Source of the DNA: Aurantiochytrium sp. KH105
Lineage: Eukaryota; Sar; Bigyra; Thraustochytrida; Thraustochytriidae
Assembly (NCBI GenBank): GCA_003116975.1
Contig: BGKB01000027.1
Coordinates: 1 to 64,000 of the forward strand
Direction of reading: 5' to 3'
Length of the DNA stretch: 64,000 bases
This document shows positions 3,032 to 63,878 of the stretch, in pieces. How positions within the stretch are numbered: the first letter of the stretch is position 1; the number at the start of each line of letters is the position of its first letter. The notes under the pieces were generated by a model. That model saw only the letters and a list, made by a program, of their open reading frames with translations, did no database searches and was not told the DNA's origin. Position numbers and translations under genes: made by a program.

Positions 3032-6000
3032 ATGGTGAGCGTTCAGGACTTGATCGCGCGCTTCAAAAGAGGCCGCGTCGGCGGAGCGCACGCAGAGGTC
3101 GAGGTGAACGAAGCCGCGCAGACGGAGGCAGAGCTACAGGTTGTTGTGGAGGACCAGGCAGAGGAAGGAGCGGACCTTGGAGTCCCTGAGGTCCTCAACG
3201 ACTTTTCCGTCCTCGTCGTGCACGATCCCGCGGACGAGACCGTGGCCGAGCAGCTCGTTGAAGCGATCCAGCCTCACCTCAGCGTGCCCGTACACACCGC
3301 AAGACAAGCTGCCGAGGCAAGAAAGGAGGCCAAGAATGCCGAGGTCGCTCTACTTCTCGTGGGCCCGGCACTCCAGAGCAACTGGAAGCTCGTTGAAGCT
3401 GCGGCGAGAGTCCTCCCGAACGCGCTTGTACCCATCCTCATCGACGATACAATGTATGAACAAAAGAACTGGAAAGGCGCGATTGCGTGGTACATGCCGG
3501 ATCTACTCTATGTCGATTTCTGCGACCCCATTAAGGCTGATGCCCGTGCGATAATGACTCAAGTATTTGCCGCACGAACTCGTGTTTCACCAGCTTTGGA
3601 TGGCAAAGACTTTCACTTCTTCATCTCTCATGAACGGGGTGATCGCGAGAACGCCATTGAGATTGCTCAAGAACTGCGTGACAGAGGCCTCGAAGCATGG
3701 CTCGAGGACACCGAGCTGTCTAGAAGCACTCATGAGAGTATGGCAAAGGGCATTGAAAAATCAAAGGTGTTCCTCATTCTCGCAACCCAAAGGTACATGG
3801 ACGTAATCAACAGCGGTGACTTCGCTGATAACTGCCTCAAGGAGTTCCAGTACGCTTGCAGCAAACGCTTCGATCGTATTGTAGTTGCTGCTCTAGAACC
3901 GGATATGATGAAGGCTACGACGAAATGGACCGGGCTTTTCAAGCTTGTACTTTCGCGTCAGGTACCCGTGGACCTGCTCAACTTTTCGGTTGAGGCGATC
4001 GACCTCCTCGCTGAGGCCATCAACCAACGTATACAAACACCAAAGGCTTCTTCGAACCTCACCCCTCTGATGCGCGACATCTATCCTCGCCTGAACCCGT
4101 GCAGCTCAGAGGCATGGGCCAAGGGCAAGGCGGAGACCTTTTTCCTTGGCACGCGAAGCTGGATCGTCGACGAGCTCTGCAAGTGGTACAGCGACAACAA
4201 GAGTGCCGTCTTCATTCTTTTAGGCGACGGCGGCGTCGGCAAAAGCGTCATCATGGCCGAGCTTTGTCGACGTGGAGGCGCTCTGATAACTGACGAAGAA
4301 ACTGAAAAGAGTAAGGCTGATGAAAGCCTGGAATTGCACCGAAAGTCGTCACGTGTACGTAGCCTGTGGCGTCGAAGCAAAAACGAGCGCCAGCCTATCT
4401 TGGTGGCAGCGTACCATTTCTTTCGGCACGATGATAGGACCGCGGCTTCACCTGCCGAAGCAATTCTGAGCATTGCTTGGCAACTGTGTCAGACCGTACC
4501 TCATTTCCCTGAAGCACTCAATCAAGAAAGCTTTAAGGGTCTTCGCGAAAAGACACTGGCGGATCTTCTCAAGACCATTCGATCCTTTGAACAAGCTCGG
4601 CTCAGGCCAGATGCGACAAGTGGTCGTGCTCGACGCCCTCGACGAGTGCAGCAAGAGCGACGATATGTTGTGGAAAATAGTTCGCACGTGGAAGGATGTT
4701 ATGCCGGCATGGCTCAGCTTGGTCGTGAGCACACGTCCCGAAGGCGAGATTCAACGCGGCATCACCAACAACAGCCTTGATTTTAAAGTGTTGGAGCTCA
4801 AGGACGAACATAACTTCTGCGACATCGAAAAGCACATCGAGCATTTGCTGTGCGACATGAAAAGTACCGTTGCGCAGAAGGACGTTGCTTCTTGCGCCAA
4901 GATTCTTTCCGAACGCTCCGAAGGTCTCTTTCTCTGGGCGAGCTTCCTTCCCGAGACCCTGAACCAGATGCACGAGGAGAAGCGAGGTGAATTGCTAACC
5001 TTGCAGGGCATCTCGCACGAAGACGCTATTCCCAATGGACTTTGTGGCATGTTCAAAGAGTATTTCAAGCGCCTGCAAGAAAAAGTTGGCGGGGAGAAGA
5101 GGTACAAGATGCTCCTGGCGCCAATCGTGGCTGCTCGCGAACCGCTTAGCGTCGAGCAACTAAGCGCAATTCTGCAATTAGACCAAGATGATACGGATGA
5201 TATGGTCGACAACGCGCGCAATCTCTTGTACCAGGGCGGCGATGGTCGTGTGGCGCTCATCCACAAGCGGATGGCAGACTGGCTGCTGGACGACGACCTG
5301 AGCGGAGATCTTGGCGTGGATGTTGAAGATGGCCATATTGCCTTGGCCGACTACTGCAGCAGCTCGCGGGACGACGTTTTTTCTCTCCGTCACGCCGTCT
5401 TTCACCTCGTCAAGAGCGGCGAACACGCTGAGGCTTTCGAGCTCCTGAATGACTTTGCATGGGTACAGAGCGCCATTTCTGTCGGTGAGGATGAAGCGCA
5501 AAGGCGCGCTACGATCAGAAACCTCATTCGCGACTGCGTCGAACTCGGCATCTACTTTGCGCCCGAAAGTGATACGCCCCGCTTTCTGAATAAAGCAGTA
5601 CATGCCCTCGGCGTCGATCCCAACGAACTTGCGTCGCAAGTTCTGGCGCGTCTTGGTCACGACTCCAAAGACCCATTGGCACATGGTTTACAAGCACCTG
5701 ATCAGCCATGGCTGATGCCTATTCGCGTCACCCTTACACGTCCTCGCGACCCCTGGCGCCACTTGTTGGAGGGGCACTTTGTGCATGTCAACAGCGTGGC
5801 GATACAGGGCGACACCATCGTCAGTGGGTCCGATGACAAGACGGTGCGCATCTGGGACGCTACGTCGGGCGAGGAGCAGCACGTGTTGAAGGGGCATCGT
5901 TGTCCGGTCGATTGCGTGGCGATAGAGGGCGACATCATCGTCAGTGGGTCCGTTGACCACACGGTGCGCATCTGGAATGCTACGTCGGGCGAGGAGCAGC

Positions 6001-7526
6001 ACGTGTTGAAGGGGCACTCTGGTTACGTCTTGAGCGTGGCGATACAGGGCGACACCATCGTCAGTGGGTCCTGGGACAACACGGTGCGCATCTGGAATGC
6101 TACGTCGGGCGAGGAGCAGCATGTGTTGAAGGGGCACTCTAGGCACGTCACAAGCGTGGCGATAGAGGGCGACATCATCGTCAGTGGGTCCTCGGACAAC
6201 ACGGTGCGCACCTGGAACGCTACGTCGGGCGAGGAGCAGCACGTGTTGAAGGGGCACTCTGATCGGGTCTGCAGCGTCGCGATACAGGGCGACACCATCG
6301 TCAGTGGGTCTGAGGACAAGACGGTGCGCACCTGGAACGCTACGTCGGGCGAGGAGCAGCACATGTTCAAGGGGCACTCTGGTACGGTCTACAGCGTGGC
6401 GATAGAGGGCGACACCATTGTCAGTGGGTCCTTGGACAAGACGGTGCGCATCTGGAACGCTACGTCGGGCGAGGAGCAGCACGTGTTAAAGGGGCACTCT
6501 AGTTATGTCACCGGCGTGGCGATACAGGGCAACATGATCGTCAGTGGGTCCTATGACAAGACGGTCCGCATCTGGAACACTACGTCGGTCGATGAGCAGC
6601 ACGTGTTGGAGGGGCTCTCTGAAACGGTATTCAGCGTGGCGATACAGGGCGACACCATCGTCAGTGGGTCCCATGACAAGACGGTGCGTATTTGGAACGC
6701 TACGTCGGGCGAGGAGCAGCACGTGTTGAAGGGGCACTCTGGTTATGTCTGGAGTGTGGCGATACAGGGCGACACCATCGTCAGTGGGTCCCATGACAAG
6801 ACGGTGCGTATTTGGAACGCTACGTCGGGCGAGGAGCAGCACGTGTTGAATGGGCACTCTGGTTCGGTATGGAGCGTGGCGATACAGGGCGACACCATCG
6901 TCAGTGGGTCCTCGGACAACACGGTGCGCATCTGGAACGCTATGTCGGGCAAGAAGCGGCACGTGTTGAAGGGGCACACTGATTGTGTCAACAGCGTAGC
7001 GATACAGGGCGACACCATCGTTAGTGGGTCCTGGGACAACACGGTGCGCATTTGGAACGCTACGTCGGGCAAAAAGCGACACGTGTTGAAGGGGCACTCT
7101 GATATGGTCTTGAGCGTGGCGATTGAGGGCGATACGATTGTCTCTGGATCCTGTGACAACACGGTGCGCATCTGGAACGCTACTTCGGGCGAGGAGCAGC
7201 ACGTTTTGGGGCATTCTACTGAGGACGCGAGCGTGGCGATTGAGGGCGATACGGCCGTTTCACAGTCACGGAATGAGACTCGTTACTGGAACGCTCGAAC
7301 GGGCGAGGCACTGGACGCGGATGAGGTGCAGGCATCGTCTACAACTGGAACAAAGACTTTGGTGACACTTGAGAATGAGACGCATGTGAAGCTTGGCGGA
7401 GGCATAGGCTTTACGACGGATCGTGCAATTTGCACGACAGCACGCGAGGGAAATGTTTACATTATTGGCGACTATAGCGGGATGGTCCACATCTTGCATG
7501 TCCAAGGAATCGAACCTGAGACCTAA
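3032..7526 (+). CDS. NOD-like receptor: TIR-TIR-NACHT-WD40, with an apparent frame change near 4580
   Basis: Signal-transducing STAND ATPase resembling innate-immune or non-self recognition receptors. From the ATG at 3032, residues about 52-170 form a TIR-like fold. Residues about 192-330 form a clearer TIR domain, with the acidic residue expected for TIR NADases at E271 (CLKEF). A NACHT domain follows with P-loop GDGGVGKS at 398-405 and, after the frame change, Walker B VVVLDALDEC near 4625-4650 and a sensor-like STRPEG. A helical linker then leads to twelve regular WD40 repeats plus a degenerate thirteenth (from 5775). The reading frame moves by one base at about 4579-4580, where ADLLKTI (first frame) is followed directly by DPLNKL (second frame). 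No GT-AG intron is needed because the homology is contiguous. This is either a real disruption or a single-base assembly error; both halves are otherwise open over long distances, which favours an error or a very recent change. In known NLRs the WD40 part senses ligand, NACHT oligomerises and the N-terminal domain signals. Confidence 0.88.
5775..7211 (+). repeat. Twelve tandem 120-bp WD40 units, highly homogeneous
   Basis: The histidine codon of each unit recurs at 5775, 5895, 6015 and so on to 7095, exactly 120 bp apart with no indel; the eighth unit has Leu in place of His. The segment encoding SVAIQGDTIVSGS is nearly identical in DNA from unit to unit. Differences concentrate in two clusters: the two residues before the conserved Val and the one after it, and the residue before the conserved Asp of SGSxD. 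A degenerate unit follows from 7212. This shows recent expansion or ongoing homogenisation. Confidence 0.95.
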
Positions 7527-9058
7527 TCGTGTGGCTTTGCGTTACCGTGCGCCATGCCTGCGTTGACGACCAATTCTGACTGCTTGTAATGTCTTACTAC
7601 AGGCACAGTATAAACATTCTGCTTTTAATCCATTGCTTTATCTGTGCACCGTCTCCATTGCGTATATTCAGCATTTACTTTCGTTTCGCTAAACTTTCAA
7701 AGATGGCCCCTCGGGAGACGACAAGAGACACGACGGCGCCACGTGAATACGATTGCGAGAAGACGTCACCCCCCCCCCCCCCTGCTTGTGCTCCCAAAGC
7801 ACTTTTTTGCCGCTGAGAAGCTCTTCTAATCAGTAATGTTTCAATGAATTGTGTTGGAGAGATTGCCGACGCTTGCCACGCCATAACAGCAGCCTCGTTT
7901 CACAGCCATATAAAAAGCAGCTTGATCCTTTATCCACCGAATTTTCGAGTGTCATCGTCAAGACTGCTTCGTCATTACTCGTGCTTCGCTGCGTTCTTTA
8001 AAGGGTCGCGCAAGAATTGTCGCGGCATCACGGTTCGAAGTACAAATATAGACATATCAGCACAACACGCTTTAAAATTATTGGGATGAGTAGAGCCCCG
8101 CTTGCCCAAACCGCATCACGTTTTTGGCAGAACTTTCCCCATCTAGCCTCGTGTTAGCTTTAAACTCAGTCCCTGCCGCAGCTCCGCCTTTCATTCCGTC
8201 GCATCGACTGCTACAAATGATGCCCTTGGCTGAATCTGGCCGTAGGCGCAGTATGGCTTAAAAACGAAACGACACTGGCTTGAGCGGTATTCCGCAGTCG
8301 ACAGTGAGTCCATCGCTCAAATCAAGCTCATCTGGCACATACCTATTGGAAGAAGCTACTCCGTTCTGGCGCTGCTGTCTTGTCTGAGTATGCCAGAATG
8401 GCAGAGCAGCATTGCAGGCGATAACAGGCTTGACGATGTGGTATTAACCTAGCACGCACGCCTCAAAGGGCACAGTATGCACGACGCAGCGCATGACGCT
8501 GGACCTACTTGCAATGTTCTCTCGCTAATCTGAGAAATCGAGCGTGGACCTTTCGCTCACTGCGCGTTTGACACCATGATTGCAAAGCGAGCGGTCGTGG
8601 CCGCATCGACTTGTTGACCTGTACCATGCTTGGTCGCCAGCATCGGCTTGAGCATCGGTTTGGCGAAGTATAAGGTTGCAGACAGCATGACTGCAGGCTT
8701 GACACGACGCGCACCGTTAGCGCTCGCCACAGCGTCCGAGACGCTGCGGTGGCCTTTCTTTCTTTCCTTCTTGCTTGCTGCTGTTCAACCCAAAGCCCAA
8801 GTCGTCGAGCAGCGCGAGGCAGTCTTTTTGCAATGCGCGTCTCCATTGATACAGCCGCGTCTTGGCCTCCCTGCGCCCCTCCCAGCTCGCGCCACCAGCG
8901 CCCGCACGTATTCAACAGGCTTCAAGGGAAGCCTCCCTCTCATCACTCTGCGCGGCGAGGCCGGGCGAGGCGGGGCGAGGCGAGGCGAGGCGAGGCGTGC
9001 TGTGGCGCAGGGCGGGCCGGCTGGCACAGGCCGCGCGCCGTGCAGAGCGACCCCCCTT
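7527..9058. other. Intergenic, AT-richer than flanks
   Basis: No convincing gene on either strand. It contains a C14 homopolymer at 7769-7782 and, at about 8950-9000, an array of GGCGA-type pentamers just before the ankyrin/TIR locus. Short open frames here lack domain signals. Confidence 0.5.
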
Positions 9059-10121
9059 ATGTCAAGTGGGCCCTGTATGAAGGCTCGTGGGGAGCAGCCC
9101 GCCATCGCGCGGTGGCTCATCGAACGCGGCGCAAAGCTTGACGACCTGCAGGACAACGGTGGATGGGTCGCGCTCCTGACCAAGGGCCGCTACGAGCAGC
9201 CCGACACGGCCCAGTTGCTCATCGAGCGCGGGGCCAAGCTTGAGCCGCAGACCGACAATGGATACACCGCGCTCATGTCAGCAGCCAAAAGGAATCGCAT
9301 CACACCGCGGTGGGTCTCCTGCGCTGCATCTTATGCTCTGCTAAGCGGCGGGCGCCGATCTGGATTTGAGGATCATCACGCACTGCCGCTGGCCAGGAAA
9401 GAAACTCGCGCCGATGCCGTCGCGTTCCTGGAGTTCGCGACGGCGTCGGAGGTGACGGGGCTCCTCCTGGGCGATTTGCAGCACCCGCGGAGCCTCGTGG
9501 TGACCTTTTACGAGGAGGGCCTGCGCACTAAGAGGATGTGTACGGTGCTGCCGAACGGGTCTCCAGGCGATGAGCGCGACCTCGTCGCTGAAACGGCGCA
9601 TGATCTCGAACGAGTTCAACTCAAACGCTGCCCATGTCCCGCAAAAGTCGCTGCCCAGGCACGTGTCGCGGTGGCTGGTGCGCGCGGCGCGGCAGTACCT
9701 CACGCTCAACTGGGGCGAGGACGGTGCAAATCACGAGGTCGTGAGCTCGGTGAACGCAAAGTTCCGACACGCGAACAAGGTCACGTGGTTTGATGAGGAT
9801 CGCCTCTCTTGCGATCTTGTCCAGCAAATCACGCAAGACATTGAGAACTCGTGCAATGTGGTGGTCTACATCACGGAGCGATGCATGGACGAGCTGCAGA
9901 GCGATAACGAAAAATTTACCGAGGATGAGTTTCTCGCGGCAACGCGTGTTCGTATAACGCGCAGTATGATTGCCGTTGTCGTGGACCCGGCAATGCTCGA
10001 CACGTCGTTGTGGCGAGGACCCCTGCAGCTCAAGCTCGGTCGCCGTCTTTACATCGACTTTACAACGCCAGCCAAGTGCGAGGAGAGCTTTCCATCTCTT
10101 TTGAAACGAATCGATGCTTGA
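9059..10121 (+). pseudogene. Ankyrin-repeat plus TIR-like locus, frame disrupted
   Basis: From an ATG at 9059, one frame encodes two ankyrin-like units, each ending in LIERGAKL, followed by NGYTALMSAAKRN, at about 9090-9300, then an unassigned stretch to about 9560. A different frame, from the ATG at 9570 to the stop at 10121, encodes about 183 residues resembling a TIR-like domain, with motifs such as NVVVYITERCMDEL. Its end (VVVDPAMLDTSLWRGP, then LYIDF) resembles the end of the first TIR-like domain of the upstream NLR (PILIDDTMYEQKNWKG, then LYVDF), so the two loci look related. Either the gene is broken, or an unrecognised intron joins the frames between about 9300 and 9600; no clear splice pair was found. 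Two short separate genes are also possible. Confidence 0.5.
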
Positions 10122-11037
10122 GCCTGATGCATCCGGAAGCGAATCCAATGTGATTCGAAGGCTACCATGAAAAATAGACGCCGCACGGCCGCAATGAAAT
10201 GTTATATTTGTTCTCCTTACCTCTAGCTGTAACGTTTCATGGAAGTGACAAGCGGAGAAGCGACAGCACTTTCCGCGGAGGATGACGTTGTCTCCGAACG
10301 AAACAGCAGCAGCGCCGAAGACCTCAGCGAGCATCAGAAACTGCGTTGTCATCAGGCAGTTTCTGTGGCAGCTGTGGAACAAACGAAGAAACCAAGCAAA
10401 TCGAGTACTGCCAATAATGAGCATTTTGGCGGTACCAAATGTGAGTTCGTCGTTTCATCGCAATGTTGATTCCCAAGTCATAGTTGCTACATTGAACAGC
10501 CTGGGTTTGGGGGGTTGGAGGGGTTGAAGGCCAGCCTTGAATATACACCCAATGATAACGATTTCGCGCTTGTATCTTTTCTACGCTACTTTTCTCAGGA
10601 TGTAGGCCTACTTGAGTCAACATTATCCTTGATTGCAATTCATTCGATCGTGCCACGTGCGCAACTCCTCATCTCATTCGCACTGAGCAAAAAGTCACGT
10701 AGGGCCGGGTTAGTATTGTGCACGCGACGTCTCGGTGTTGCATGTTTCCTCCTACTTTTTCTTCATCCTTTCTGATTCACTCGTTTCTCCTAAGATGCTT
10801 TGCGTTCTACCAGACCAAAGCAGCGTTTCTCTTTTTTTTTGACGGGAGAATTTTTGACTACAATGCAAAGTCCCGCCAAGTCGCAGTGGTCGCCGCCCAC
10901 TTGTGGTCTCTTTGCTGTAGTCAAACAGCTGCACCTTGCAACAAGGGCCATGGAATGATTATTTGGCCATCACTGGTCGCTGTCAACTTGGGTGAGAAAA
11001 AGAAGGAGAAGAAAAAAAAAAGAGGGGGAAAAGAAAA
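10122..11037. other. Intergenic
   Basis: No gene seen. The stretch is AT-richer, with short unsupported open frames on both strands. It ends at the tRNA-Glu gene, whose terminator lies at 11034-11037. Confidence 0.45.
11034..11037 (-). terminator. Pol III T-run after tRNA-Glu
   Basis: Four T residues on the minus strand follow the discriminator base directly, and a longer T tract lies slightly further on. Confidence 0.7.
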
Positions 11038-11108
11038 TTCCATGTCCGGGAATCGAACCCGGGGGTTGACGGTGAGAGCGTCAGATGTTACCATTACACC
11101 AACACGGA
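11038..11108 (-). tRNA. tRNA-Glu (anticodon CTC)
   Basis: The minus strand folds into a cloverleaf. The acceptor TCCGTGT pairs with ACATGGA (one G-U). The anticodon stem TGACG/CGTCA closes the loop CTCTCAC, giving anticodon CTC. The T arm CCGGG/CCCGG has loop TTCGATT, and the discriminator base is A. There is no intron and CCA is not encoded. A TTTT run on the same strand at 11034-11037 follows immediately, as expected for a Pol III terminator. Confidence 0.95.
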
Positions 11109-51977: not shown

Positions 51978-54848
51978 TCAGACTTGTGTGAGAGCGTGTT
52001 CCTTCTCGAGACTATCTCCATTTGCTGGCTGCACATGGCTCGACGCGAGCTGGCTGCGCAAGCGCTTACACTCCGCTTCGAGTTCCTCGTTGACGGCACG
52101 AGCTCTCTCCAGCTGATCCTCCAGCGCAGCACTCGAACGAACCCCATCCGACGTGCTATTATGGCTCGACTTGCGTATCGAATCTGCCATTTCATCCGCT
52201 GACTTACCCTTGTGCCGCGCTTGCGAGCGGATTTTAGGAATGAAGATTAATCCAAGCACGGCAAGGTCTGTAAGAAAGATGATGCCAGAGAGACAAAGAA
52301 AACGCGCGAGCGGGTCACTTCCCACAGCGAACAAAAGAGGAATACCGAGCACGAGGAGCTGCAACGAAGTGTACAGAATAATGAGCAGGTATCGGCGTTC
52401 CAAAAATTGCGCGCTCACGTTGCGCACCTTGTACAACATGACATGACCGCCAATGAGAATGGAGACGTGGACCACTGCGAGAGCCGCCACAAAGCCGCCC
52501 GGATAATCCGACGAGCACATCCCCGAAGAAACCTCAAGAACCACGCCTGGGGTGTTTTGGATCGTCACCGAGACAGCCTCGCCACGAGCCCAGTGAAGCG
52601 GATCTACAGCCGTCCACACACTGAGAATAAGGATGTCGACACAAAGCACCGCCGCAATGGATATGGAAAGGTCCAGATTGGTGATGCGTAACCTCTTCAT
52701 GCGCTTGTTGTTGACGATCTTGCCGAGTCGCCAGGACTTGGCAAAGAGTGATGAAAACGAGAGTGTCCAGCCAATGCAGTAGAGCCAGGGAGCAATCAAG
52801 CATGCCGCGCTTGCTCGAGAATCGTCCTCGTTGGCCTCTGCGTCCACTGCAAGAGGTAAAATCGTCGACGTCGAGATGGCACATCCAATCGCAACAAGGT
52901 AAAGAAAAAAGGGCTGGGAAAGCTGAACGACAGGCTCCTTGCGGTGACGGAAAACCCAGGTGGCAAAACCGGCCGCCAATAGCCAATTAATTGCCACAAG
53001 GGTGTAGCCCAGGCCGCGGACCCAAGAGTCGAGCGTGCCATCGCTGACGCTGATACATACGTCGCGCGCTTCAGCAGGTGTGCTCAGCGCTGGACACACT
53101 TTGCAAGCTTGCCCGTCGCTGCTAAAGGTATCGCCCTCGCAGAGAAAGCATTTCGAGCACAGAAAGCACCCATCGTCGAGTATACGCGACGATGACTTAG
53201 ACTGACCCGCTACGCATGCCTGCGCGAGAGGCACTGGAAACTCGATCGAAGCTGTGGCCGCTTCGCTTGGCGAAATACATGTATCCTCAAAGGTGACGTT
53301 CCCGGAAGAAGCGTTTCGAGCGTTCAATGGCACGCGCTCAATCTCTGCTGTAGCGGGCGCAGTTGTTGTTGATGTTGTTGCTGCTGCTGCTGCTGCAGCT
53401 GCTGCTGTCGACGACGACGACAGCAAAGTAGTACTGGCAGGCAGGACCTGCACGCCAGCAGCATCGCGACCCACATTGCGCTTGAGGTCGTTGAAGGCAA
53501 CGCGACCGTAGATTGTCTCAACCACGAGCGACTCGAGGGAGCGACGTAGTCGCTCGTACTCGGAGCGCATGACCTCGCGCACATCGGGACTGTCGAAGTC
53601 TGCAAAGGCACGCTTTAAATGCTGCATGAACACGTAGGGGATCGTGTACGAGGCAACCGTGTCGTAAGACGGTGTGTAGTTAAAGGCCGCGGCATTAAAT
53701 GCCTGCAGGTCTGCTCCATCCGTGAAGAACTCGTCATCATACGGGAATTGGCGATGCCATTGACCTGCGCCGAGCAAATACTTGGACCGGCCCTGCAGCC
53801 GATTCAGCCCCCACGCCTGGGTGGTTGTCGTCATCCACACTGCACTGGGCTCGCACTCATTTTTCTCCCAATAGTCGAACATCGCGTTCGCTTCAATGTC
53901 TGCAGAGACACATAAAAAGTAAACTGTGGCTTCGGAATCGCAAATCTCTTGAGCGAGTGTTTGCGCAAAGGCCGCGTCCTCGCCGTCGGGAAGCCCATTG
54001 GAATTGCTGTCCTCTTGTGGGTTGTACATGTTGTAGTACGTCACCTCGAGGCCGATATCTGGAGACGCTGCATAGCTTGCGGCTCCTGCACAGGTTGTAT
54101 TGTAATAGTTGCTGCGATCGCGGCCAGCGACGGCAATCTTGGCGCCCGGCGTGGCGAAGCTCACCTGGCGAATCGCGTCAAAGGAGTATTCATTGCTTGG
54201 CACGTGGATGCCGAACAGCAGAGGGTTGCTAAAGTTTTCGTAGTACTCGTTATACCCGACCTGGGCCATAAGGATGCGCTGGTCCTGATCGCCCTCGTAG
54301 GCGCTCGCGGCCTCGCAGGTCCCGATGATGAAGGCGATGTCGAGCGTTGCGAGAGAAGAATTCAGTAACGCCCTGTGCGTGGCCTCATACTCGGGCTCCA
54401 TCGTCGATCGACCCGCGATGATGGACAGGAGACGAAAGTGAACCTTGGTCTTGTCGCCGTAGCCCACCTCGAAGCCTGACGCGTTGTTGATTTTCCTCAC
54501 GGCGGTGAGGGCGCCATCCCGATGATCTGCGCAGGTCCCTGGTGTGATTTGCAGCAAGAGGATTTCCACACTGTCGAGCTCCTCTGCGTTCTCGAGCGTC
54601 TCATTGTACAGCACGCAAGGCTCGACGGTCTCCGCAGTCTCCCTGAGCTCGCCGCTCGTGAACGCGCAGGCCGTCAGGTTCCCCACCTCCGGCACGGCAG
54701 CCTCGGCCGCGCTCGCCGCCAGCAGCAGTGGAGCCAGCACCAGCGCCAGCGAGCACGCCCGCAACCGCGCCCGCGAGCACCGCGCCGAGCGCGCCGCGCA
54801 GGCCGAGGCCCCCGCTGGCCGCGGCGGGCGCGCCTCGATCAGGCCCAT
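51978..54848 (-). CDS. Class C G-protein-coupled receptor, GABA-B-like
   Basis: Seven-helix receptor of 956 residues. A signal-peptide-like segment (about 31-51, ACSLALVLAPLLLAASAAEA) is followed by a bilobed periplasmic-binding-type ligand domain (about 85-480) with N-glycosylation sites. A low-complexity Ala/Thr/Ser insert (about 490-520) and a small Cys-rich piece (CFLCSKCFLCEG...CKVCP) come next. Seven hydrophobic segments span about 612-875, including the GABA-B-type motif WTLSFSSLFAKSWRL at helix 3 and loop 2. The cytosolic tail has a coiled coil (LEDQLERARAVNEELEAECKRL), as in GABA-B subunits, which use it to dimerise. The ligand is unknown. It probably signals through G-alpha. Confidence 0.92.
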   Translation of the reverse strand: MGLIEARPPRPAGASACAARSARCSRARLRACSLALVLAPLLLAASAAEAAVPEVGNLTACAFTSGELRETAETVEPCVLYNETLENAEELDSVEILLLQITPGTCADHRDGALTAVRKINNASGFEVGYGDKTKVHFRLLSIIAGRSTMEPEYEATHRALLNSSLATLDIAFIIGTCEAASAYEGDQDQRILMAQVGYNEYYENFSNPLLFGIHVPSNEYSFDAIRQVSFATPGAKIAVAGRDRSNYYNTTCAGAASYAASPDIGLEVTYYNMYNPQEDSNSNGLPDGEDAAFAQTLAQEICDSEATVYFLCVSADIEANAMFDYWEKNECEPSAVWMTTTTQAWGLNRLQGRSKYLLGAGQWHRQFPYDDEFFTDGADLQAFNAAAFNYTPSYDTVASYTIPYVFMQHLKRAFADFDSPDVREVMRSEYERLRRSLESLVVETIYGRVAFNDLKRNVGRDAAGVQVLPASTTLLSSSSTAAAAAAAAATTSTTTAPATAEIERVPLNARNASSGNVTFEDTCISPSEAATASIEFPVPLAQACVAGQSKSSSRILDDGCFLCSKCFLCEGDTFSSDGQACKVCPALSTPAEARDVCISVSDGTLDSWVRGLGYTLVAINWLLAAGFATWVFRHRKEPVVQLSQPFFLYLVAIGCAISTSTILPLAVDAEANEDDSRASAACLIAPWLYCIGWTLSFSSLFAKSWRLGKIVNNKRMKRLRITNLDLSISIAAVLCVDILILSVWTAVDPLHWARGEAVSVTIQNTPGVVLEVSSGMCSSDYPGGFVAALAVVHVSILIGGHVMLYKVRNVSAQFLERRYLLIILYTSLQLLVLGIPLLFAVGSDPLARFLCLSGIIFLTDLAVLGLIFIPKIRSQARHKGKSADEMADSIRKSSHNSTSDGVRSSAALEDQLERARAVNEELEAECKRLRSQLASSHVQPANGDSLEKEHALTQV

Positions 54849-63075: not shown

Positions 63076-63878
63076 GTCTAATAAGTGCAGTGCGAAGCCG
63101 TTGATGCTAAAGTAAATCGGGTCTGAATGTCTCAGGATGGGTGCACTTTGGGCTTTTGCAGCACCTTTCTAAAAGTGACTCTTCGGATGCCTTAGCCATG
63201 GATCGCCGCTACCCGCCGAGCTCCGGGAGAAGTGACTTTTGACCGCGTCATGAAACGAGAAACAGTAGGCGCTACATGCACTCTTTCGCACAAAAATAGA
63301 TATGCGGAACTGCTGTATGCGAGTGCGTGCGAAGCACTGCAACGACAATACCAACACATAAAATAATAAACTCATCTCTCAAGCAGGCGAGCGCCAAGTC
63401 TTATTCTCAACAGACCAAACAGCTGTGTTTGAGAAGAAAAGAGAAACTTGCAAGGGAAAAGTCAGCCGCTCCTGTTTGATGCGTTCACATGGCTTTGAGA
63501 TTTACAAGCACAGTTTTTTTTTGCAGATCGATCGTGCTTTTCGGACAATCTCGAAGAGGTAGATTGACAATGACCCGCAAAAATACATATTTCGACAGGG
63601 AGAGGAAAATGTGGGTGCGCTGACTGATTGCACAACTTGCAAAAGTCGTTTGATGCTCAAACTGACTGATTGCACAACTTGCAAAAGTCGTTTGATGCTC
63701 AAACTGACTGATTGCCTAGTTTGCAAAAGTCGTTTGATACTCAAACTGACTGATTGCACAACTTGCTTAAATTGAGGCTTGTTCTTCTTTCTATTCTGTC
63801 AAATTTTTTATTTCATCCAAAAAACCTCAGAGACGACACACAACTTGAACTCATTTGTCGTTTTAGAATTTACCCAGC
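63076..63878. other. Convergent 3' intergenic region
   Basis: No gene seen; AT-richer and containing the 42-bp tandem repeat. Confidence 0.5.
63620..63766. repeat. 42-bp tandem repeat, about 3.5 copies
   Basis: Units start at 63620, 63662, 63704 and 63746 (partial), each beginning CTGACTGATTGC. The first two are identical and the third differs at a few bases. Open frames through it give a repetitive peptide and are not considered genes. Confidence 0.95.

Follow-up and report, generated by a model that had tools for sequence, protein, structure and literature searches.

The locus discussed here raises the question of whether a protist can carry the kind of receptor genes in which near-uniform WD40 repeats differ, unit after unit, at the same few codons, as described for the fungal NWD/HNWD genes. 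It lies at positions 3,032 to 7,526 of the window, i.e. the whole 64,000-nucleotide stretch analysed (contig BGKB01000027.1, positions 1 to 64,000) of the thraustochytrid Aurantiochytrium sp. KH105, and codes for a TIR domain, a NACHT-type NTPase and, at the C-terminal end, a row of WD40 units that resemble one another closely. The answer proposed is that the locus probably belongs to a diversifying family of thraustochytrid receptor genes of the NLR/STAND type, with the architecture TIR-NACHT-WD40, HNWD-like but with a TIR effector, whose role would be recognition.

The WD40 array

The array occupies positions 5760..7199 of the forward strand, in the frame of the open reading frame (ORF) 4473-7526. 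It consists of twelve 40-codon units of exactly 120 bp, with zero indels, and its 1440 bp are open throughout; on the translation, the Pfam WD40 family was found with an E-value of 6e-96 in 12 stretches. A degenerate 13th unit and a conserved C-terminal tail follow at 7200..7526 (+), and a similar tail also ends proteins P0009, P0010, P0012 and P0013. The initial annotation, which had described twelve consecutive 120-bp units without an indel, is borne out on this point; the start that it gave, 5775, belongs to this array too, counted from the GH of unit 1 instead of from 5760.

Two series of residues that it had listed were reproduced letter for letter: through the twelve units in order, codon 11 reads NDLTCYTFWWNL and codon 25 reads DVWSELYHHSWC. 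Codons 8 and 9 are also hypervariable, with 7 and 8 residues, respectively, across the 12 units, while variation is mild at codon 27 (K in 6, N in 5 and H in 1) and codon 7 (S in 9/12), and codon 34 hardly varies, 11/12 units having A. Around codon 25 the flanks are nearly constant, all 12 units having TCC or TCT before it and GAC after it. The mean pairwise DNA identity of the units is 0.848 as a whole, 0.902 without codons 8, 9, 11 and 25, and 0.366 at these four, so that the "almost identical DNA" of the first description was somewhat strongly worded. The array and its variable codons are therefore confirmed.

Probable selection at the hypervariable codons

Nonsynonymous and synonymous differences were counted by the Nei-Gojobori method over the 66 unit pairs, with codons 8, 9, 11 and 25 as the hypervariable set and the other 36 codons as the framework. 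The proportion of nonsynonymous differences (pN) is 0.658 at the four hypervariable codons vs. 0.076 in the framework, where the proportion of synonymous differences (pS) reaches 0.171 (bootstrap 0.114-0.234). Hypervariable pN thus exceeds framework pS by a factor of 3.82 (2.98-5.62 when units are resampled); 51% of the nonsynonymous differences fall in the four codons, compared with 21% of the synonymous ones. The per-codon comparison suggested with the first description thus revealed a nonsynonymous excess concentrated in a few codons, at defined WD40 positions. The hypervariable sensor array is real, and has most likely been shaped by selection.

Signs of exchange among units, and the gene family

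Concerning a possible exchange of sequence among units, 19 of the 78 pairs of two-state framework sites failed the four-gamete test. Unit 9 differs from unit 3 at 3/63 positions in its first part and from unit 8 at 0/57 in its second part, and the longest stretch over which units 8 and 9 are identical measures 95 bp, starts at 6636 and crosses the unit border. Among unit pairs, the differences in the two half-units are uncorrelated (r 0.08, Mantel p 0.35). These results are most simply explained by gene conversion whose breakpoints fall within units and which reassorts a patch formed by codons 8, 9 and 11 against a patch formed by codons 25 and 27, recurrent mutation being the alternative.

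When the NTPase part of P0002 was used as the query of a protein search, 21 proteins were returned, 14 of which bear the name of the thraustochytrid Hondaea fermentalgiana (60-84% identical), although more than one of these records may derive from a single locus. Next in similarity comes P0016, with 44% identity. These records show a multi-gene family. TIR_2, NPHP3_N and WD40 occur together in single proteins in P0009, P0012 and P0013. As for P0003, P0005, P0006 and P0007, they end inside the array, on contigs of 1.7-4.4 kb, which suggests that long identical stretches are shared between loci. P0004, P0011, P0015 and P0017, called ankyrin repeat protein 50 or TANC1 at NCBI, share this TIR-NACHT part, and their records stop short of the array or just where it begins; these names probably reflect annotation by similarity.

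The eight full units of P0003, P0005, P0006 and P0007 were pooled, units cut by record ends being left out. Their five most variable positions are those of the window (9, 25, 8, 27 and 11; hypergeometric 1.5e-6), and in P0010 all five are likewise found in the top five. By a rank test, the five positions stand above the rest in 8/8 sets (p ≤ 0.0072), the test being circular for the window because the positions were chosen there. In this eight-set comparison, units below the score cut were dropped (1/6 in P0009, 1/12 in P0010, 2/17 in P0013, 2/9 in P0014 and 1/8 in P0016), and units missed by the unit finder, as in P0013, were not counted. A larger set of 69 units combined all 12 from the window, the 8 pooled from the four partial paralogues and, for the rest, units of six other proteins scoring above 100: all 69 carry a distinct combination of residues at the five positions. 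When these positions are removed, units of the window and of the four partial paralogues have an amino-acid identity of 0.86-0.93, both within and between these groups.

On viral contigs, 57 stretches matching a search pattern were found, with no relative among them, and the 73 matched stretches of prokaryote genomes included four weak loci, at 24-46% identity. No phage match to positions 3032-5760 was obtained by megablast.

The TIR-NACHT scaffold and its frame break

The scaffold upstream of the array is of the TIR-NACHT type, as had been stated initially. In the Pfam scan of P0001, eight families were obtained at E-values up to 1, TIR_2 among them. The TIR domain (3608..4039, +; P0001 residues 193-336) carries a C-x-x-E motif (C268 and E271), and its fold matches SARM1. 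E271, a candidate for the catalytic glutamate of NAD+ cleavage, is nearly invariant in the 12 aligned rows, with D in P0007; judged from the offset between the aligned ranges, its position would agree with that of the SARM1 glutamate. The TIR domain is preceded by a first degenerate alpha/beta domain (3200..3541, +; residues 57-170), recognised in an AlphaFold model in which strands and helices alternate, with predicted local distance difference test (pLDDT) values by block of roughly 71-89 between residues 61 and 140, falling to 44-61 thereafter; this domain has no match in the Pfam scan and is putatively TIR-like.

In the middle of the protein lies a NACHT-type P-loop NTPase, with the motif GDGGVGKS, which we take to be Walker A, at 4223..4246 (+), on the same ORF as an NPHP3_N match (1.6e-11). 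The motif VVVLDALDEC, presumably Walker B, is read in a second frame at 4620..4649 (+); positions V14-V16, D18, A19, L20, D21 and E22 are invariant in an alignment of 12 rows. In this alignment, the remaining NTPase part and a helical linker (4581..5759, +) are 64-84% identical to ten Hondaea paralogues and 45% identical to the relative P0016.

The first description overlooked that the gene is not read in a single frame. The TIR domain and Walker A belong to ORF 3032-4780, and Walker B, the helical part and the WD40 array to ORF 4473-7526, in another frame, the NTPase being split between the two. Six paralogues were compared with the window by tblastn, namely P0006, P0009, P0011 and P0015 (first 930 residues or less) and P0012 and P0017 (in pieces). 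Each aligned in two pieces in different frames, which meet at 4579/4581 for five of them and overlap at 4581-4600 for P0006. The break (4579..4581, +) is thus situated between Walker A and Walker B, and is found in none of the six paralogues, whose proteins all read through the place. There is, as a consequence, no continuous frame from effector to sensor in the window copy and, as assembled, the gene is not a working receptor. The copy is most likely a recent pseudogene or the product of an assembly error; either way, the break weakens claims on the window gene, not on the family.

Alternative explanations

That the window copy is a dead relic, the remains of an earlier functional array, is the alternative that survives best, and we would put it at about even chances; it is compatible with the family reading. 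In addition to the break itself, it is favoured by the neighbourhood of the gene, with a copia-like pol piece directly before it and degenerate ankyrin/TIR sequence after it. The twelve units are however still open over 1440 bp, so that any death would be recent, and an assembly error would be expected to leave the same break. Moreover, the pattern of hypervariable codons, which the paralogues show too, is left unexplained by the death of one copy.

Recent tandem amplification with relaxed loops would make the pattern a matter of drift at unconstrained WD40 positions, with no selection for change. Such loop positions are generally weakly conserved in WD40 families, the diverged array P0014 and the relative P0016 vary just as much elsewhere in the unit, and codon 11 varies (W, R, N) in 2ymu, a solved WD40 array presumably from Nostoc. 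Drift should nevertheless remain within the synonymous rate, while hypervariable pN is about 3.8 times framework pS. When neutral evolution was simulated on a star tree, with 4000 columns for each setting, at least seven residues in a column of 12 units were obtained in 0/4000 columns at p = 0.109, and at frequencies of 0.0013 at 0.171, 0.0088 at 0.25 and 0.062 at 0.35; at the framework rate, the probability is therefore at most 0.0013 per codon. Furthermore, 2ymu is repetitive and yet, in the alignment shown, its units do not differ at codons 8, 9 and 27, and a single unit departs from the others at codon 25, which indicates that amplification alone does not give the full pattern. From the excess over framework pS and the simulation, drift in a merely repetitive array was judged unlikely.

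An assembly artefact, in which the order and number of units in the window would be a chimera of several near-identical loci, has a similarly small probability. The four paralogue contigs of 1.7-4.4 kb that end in the array are what would be expected where shared repeats defeat assembly. A real array is favoured, on the other hand, by the full register without indels and by the degenerate terminal unit, a similar unit closing the array in P0009 (contig of 24 kb) and in P0010 (contig of 174 kb); and units with distinct hypervariable codons should exist in the reads, whatever their order.

The third bases of the variable codons bear on the last alternative. Wherever codon 8 or 25 ends in a pyrimidine (15/24 cases), this is T, the remaining 9/24 ending in G or A, while T/(T+C) is 0.38 at the pyrimidine-ending codons of the scaffold; the 15 are not independent draws, because the units share ancestry. 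At these two codons, first and second bases differ in 44-77% of unit pairs and third bases in 44-55%, but never as T vs. C, whereas T and C endings are mixed at codons 9 and 11. Targeted mutagenesis (e.g. by a diversity generator of the retroelement type) writing the variable codons would agree with change confined to single codons amid near-invariant neighbours, but is very improbable, since pyrimidine endings all in T despite changing first and second bases fit selection on amino-acid change from T-ending ancestors better than whole-codon mutagenesis, and Pfam scans of 17 of the 109 ORFs listed with at least 150 amino acids showed a single copia-type pol fragment.

A proposed diversifying receptor family and how it might work

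Several points weigh against a diversifying receptor family with selected sensor codons. The window copy is frame-broken. P0012 and P0013 share only three of the five top positions (p 0.009 each), and P0009, P0014 and P0016 (3/8 sets) share one or two, not beyond chance by this measure. Codon 11 is variable in the solved array 2ymu as well. At the hypervariable codons, pS is itself high (0.52, on few sites), and a codon model on the framework tree, with the branch scale free, gained 3.25 log-likelihood units for these codons (-184.88 with omega free vs. -188.13 with omega = 1 and kappa fixed as well), support whose weakness is probably due to saturation of the hypervariable codons. Finally, the predicted model of the array (mean pLDDT 63, from a single sequence) matches designed 8-bladed propellers and many natural ones, and settles neither the number of blades nor the face on which the variable residues lie. 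A unit number in multiples of seven was also considered and dropped: by our count, P0009 and the window fit it, P0010 and P0012 do not.

With these points counted, the diversifying family is retained as the likely reading. Repeated duplication and gene conversion would keep the WD40 units alike, while selection for change would keep codons 8, 9, 11 and 25, and more weakly 27 and 7, different in nearly every unit. By the usual WD40 layout, the variable residues would lie on one face of the propeller; sharing such a face, they may give each array a different composite binding surface. Binding of a ligand there might release the NACHT NTPase, which would then oligomerise, and the TIR domain would cleave NAD+ or signal.

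More tentatively, in this free-living, single-celled stramenopile the loci may form a receptor repertoire drawing on one pool of WD40 units, in which gene conversion within units reassorts the two hypervariable patches of each blade (8/9/11 and 25/27). Such a repertoire, a possibility to which we give about one chance in three, would serve an anticipatory, germline-encoded and population-diverse immunity, perhaps against viruses or bacteria, rather than mycelial self/non-self recognition; cell fusion is not known in this organism.

Other features of the window

Directly upstream of the receptor gene, an open ORF on the reverse strand (1-2316) has a Pol_BBD match (2.5e-7) and is apparently a piece of a copia-type pol. 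Downstream, at 8630-10121 (+), a degenerate ankyrin stretch (Ank_4, 3.2e-6) is followed by a second TIR_2 (1.5e-6) in another frame; P0012 matches this stretch weakly (26%, 1.9e-6), and it is possibly the relic of a related receptor gene. The window also contains a 5S rRNA match (10640-10746, +; 40.5 bits for a gathering threshold of 38) next to a tRNA-Glu (11038-11108, -), an ORF of 956 residues for a class C G-protein-coupled receptor (51978-54848, -; 7tm_3, 6e-35), and a 42-bp tandem repeat of 3.5 copies with 91% matches (63620-63766).

Comparison with known systems

Several TIR NADases were compared with the TIR domain, i.e. SARM1, the plant TIR-NLRs RPP1 and RUN1 and the prokaryotic SPARTA TIR. 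Their identity to it is 13-20%, and NADase activity of the window family is putative.

Among solved chains, 2ymu is the best match of the array (1.2e-109). It resembles the array in its many near-identical units and in the variation of codon 11, and differs from it in the near-uniformity of the other positions already mentioned. The repetitive NTPase-WD40 proteins P0018, P0019 and P0023, probably bacterial, are distant, with 25-29% identity in the NTPase region. The five most variable unit positions of these three include 25, 8, 9 and 11, while P0020 and P0022, the other two of the five distant relatives tested, have no such pattern (P0021, in which two units are nearly complete, is not among the five). 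The occurrence of the pattern outside fungi may therefore be less special than was first held.

The closest parallel is with the fungal NWD/HNWD genes (het-d, het-e, het-r and hnwd of Podospora), which likewise combine a NACHT-type NTPase with highly similar WD40 units behind it, and form a family of several genes whose units seem to have been exchanged. HNWD positions 10, 11, 12, 14, 30, 32 and 39 presumably correspond to unit codons 7, 8, 9, 11, 25, 27 and 34 here, of which four vary strongly (8, 9, 11 and 25), two mildly (7 and 27) and codon 34 hardly; the HNWD pattern is reportedly the one described by Paoletti, Saupe and Clave in 2007 and by Chevanne and others in 2010. The effector is TIR here vs. 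HET in fungi, no N-terminal HET domain being present among the eight Pfam families of P0001, and the host is a stramenopile; because of this effector, the family is not a member of HNWD. We know of no incompatibility phenotype or strain polymorphism for it. The HNWD-like interpretation first put forward is thus supported in part: it gains from the codon-level nonsynonymous excess, the TIR-NACHT scaffold, the gene family and the correspondence of the variable positions, and loses by the broken frame of the window copy and by the distant relatives with the same variable positions. If it is true, a culturable thraustochytrid would offer a test case for the targets of hypervariable WD40 surfaces and for the diversification of immune receptors in single-celled eukaryotes, and the repeat-swapping hypervariable NLRs best known from fungi would also exist, newly arisen or retained, in a lineage of marine protists, where their effector is TIR.

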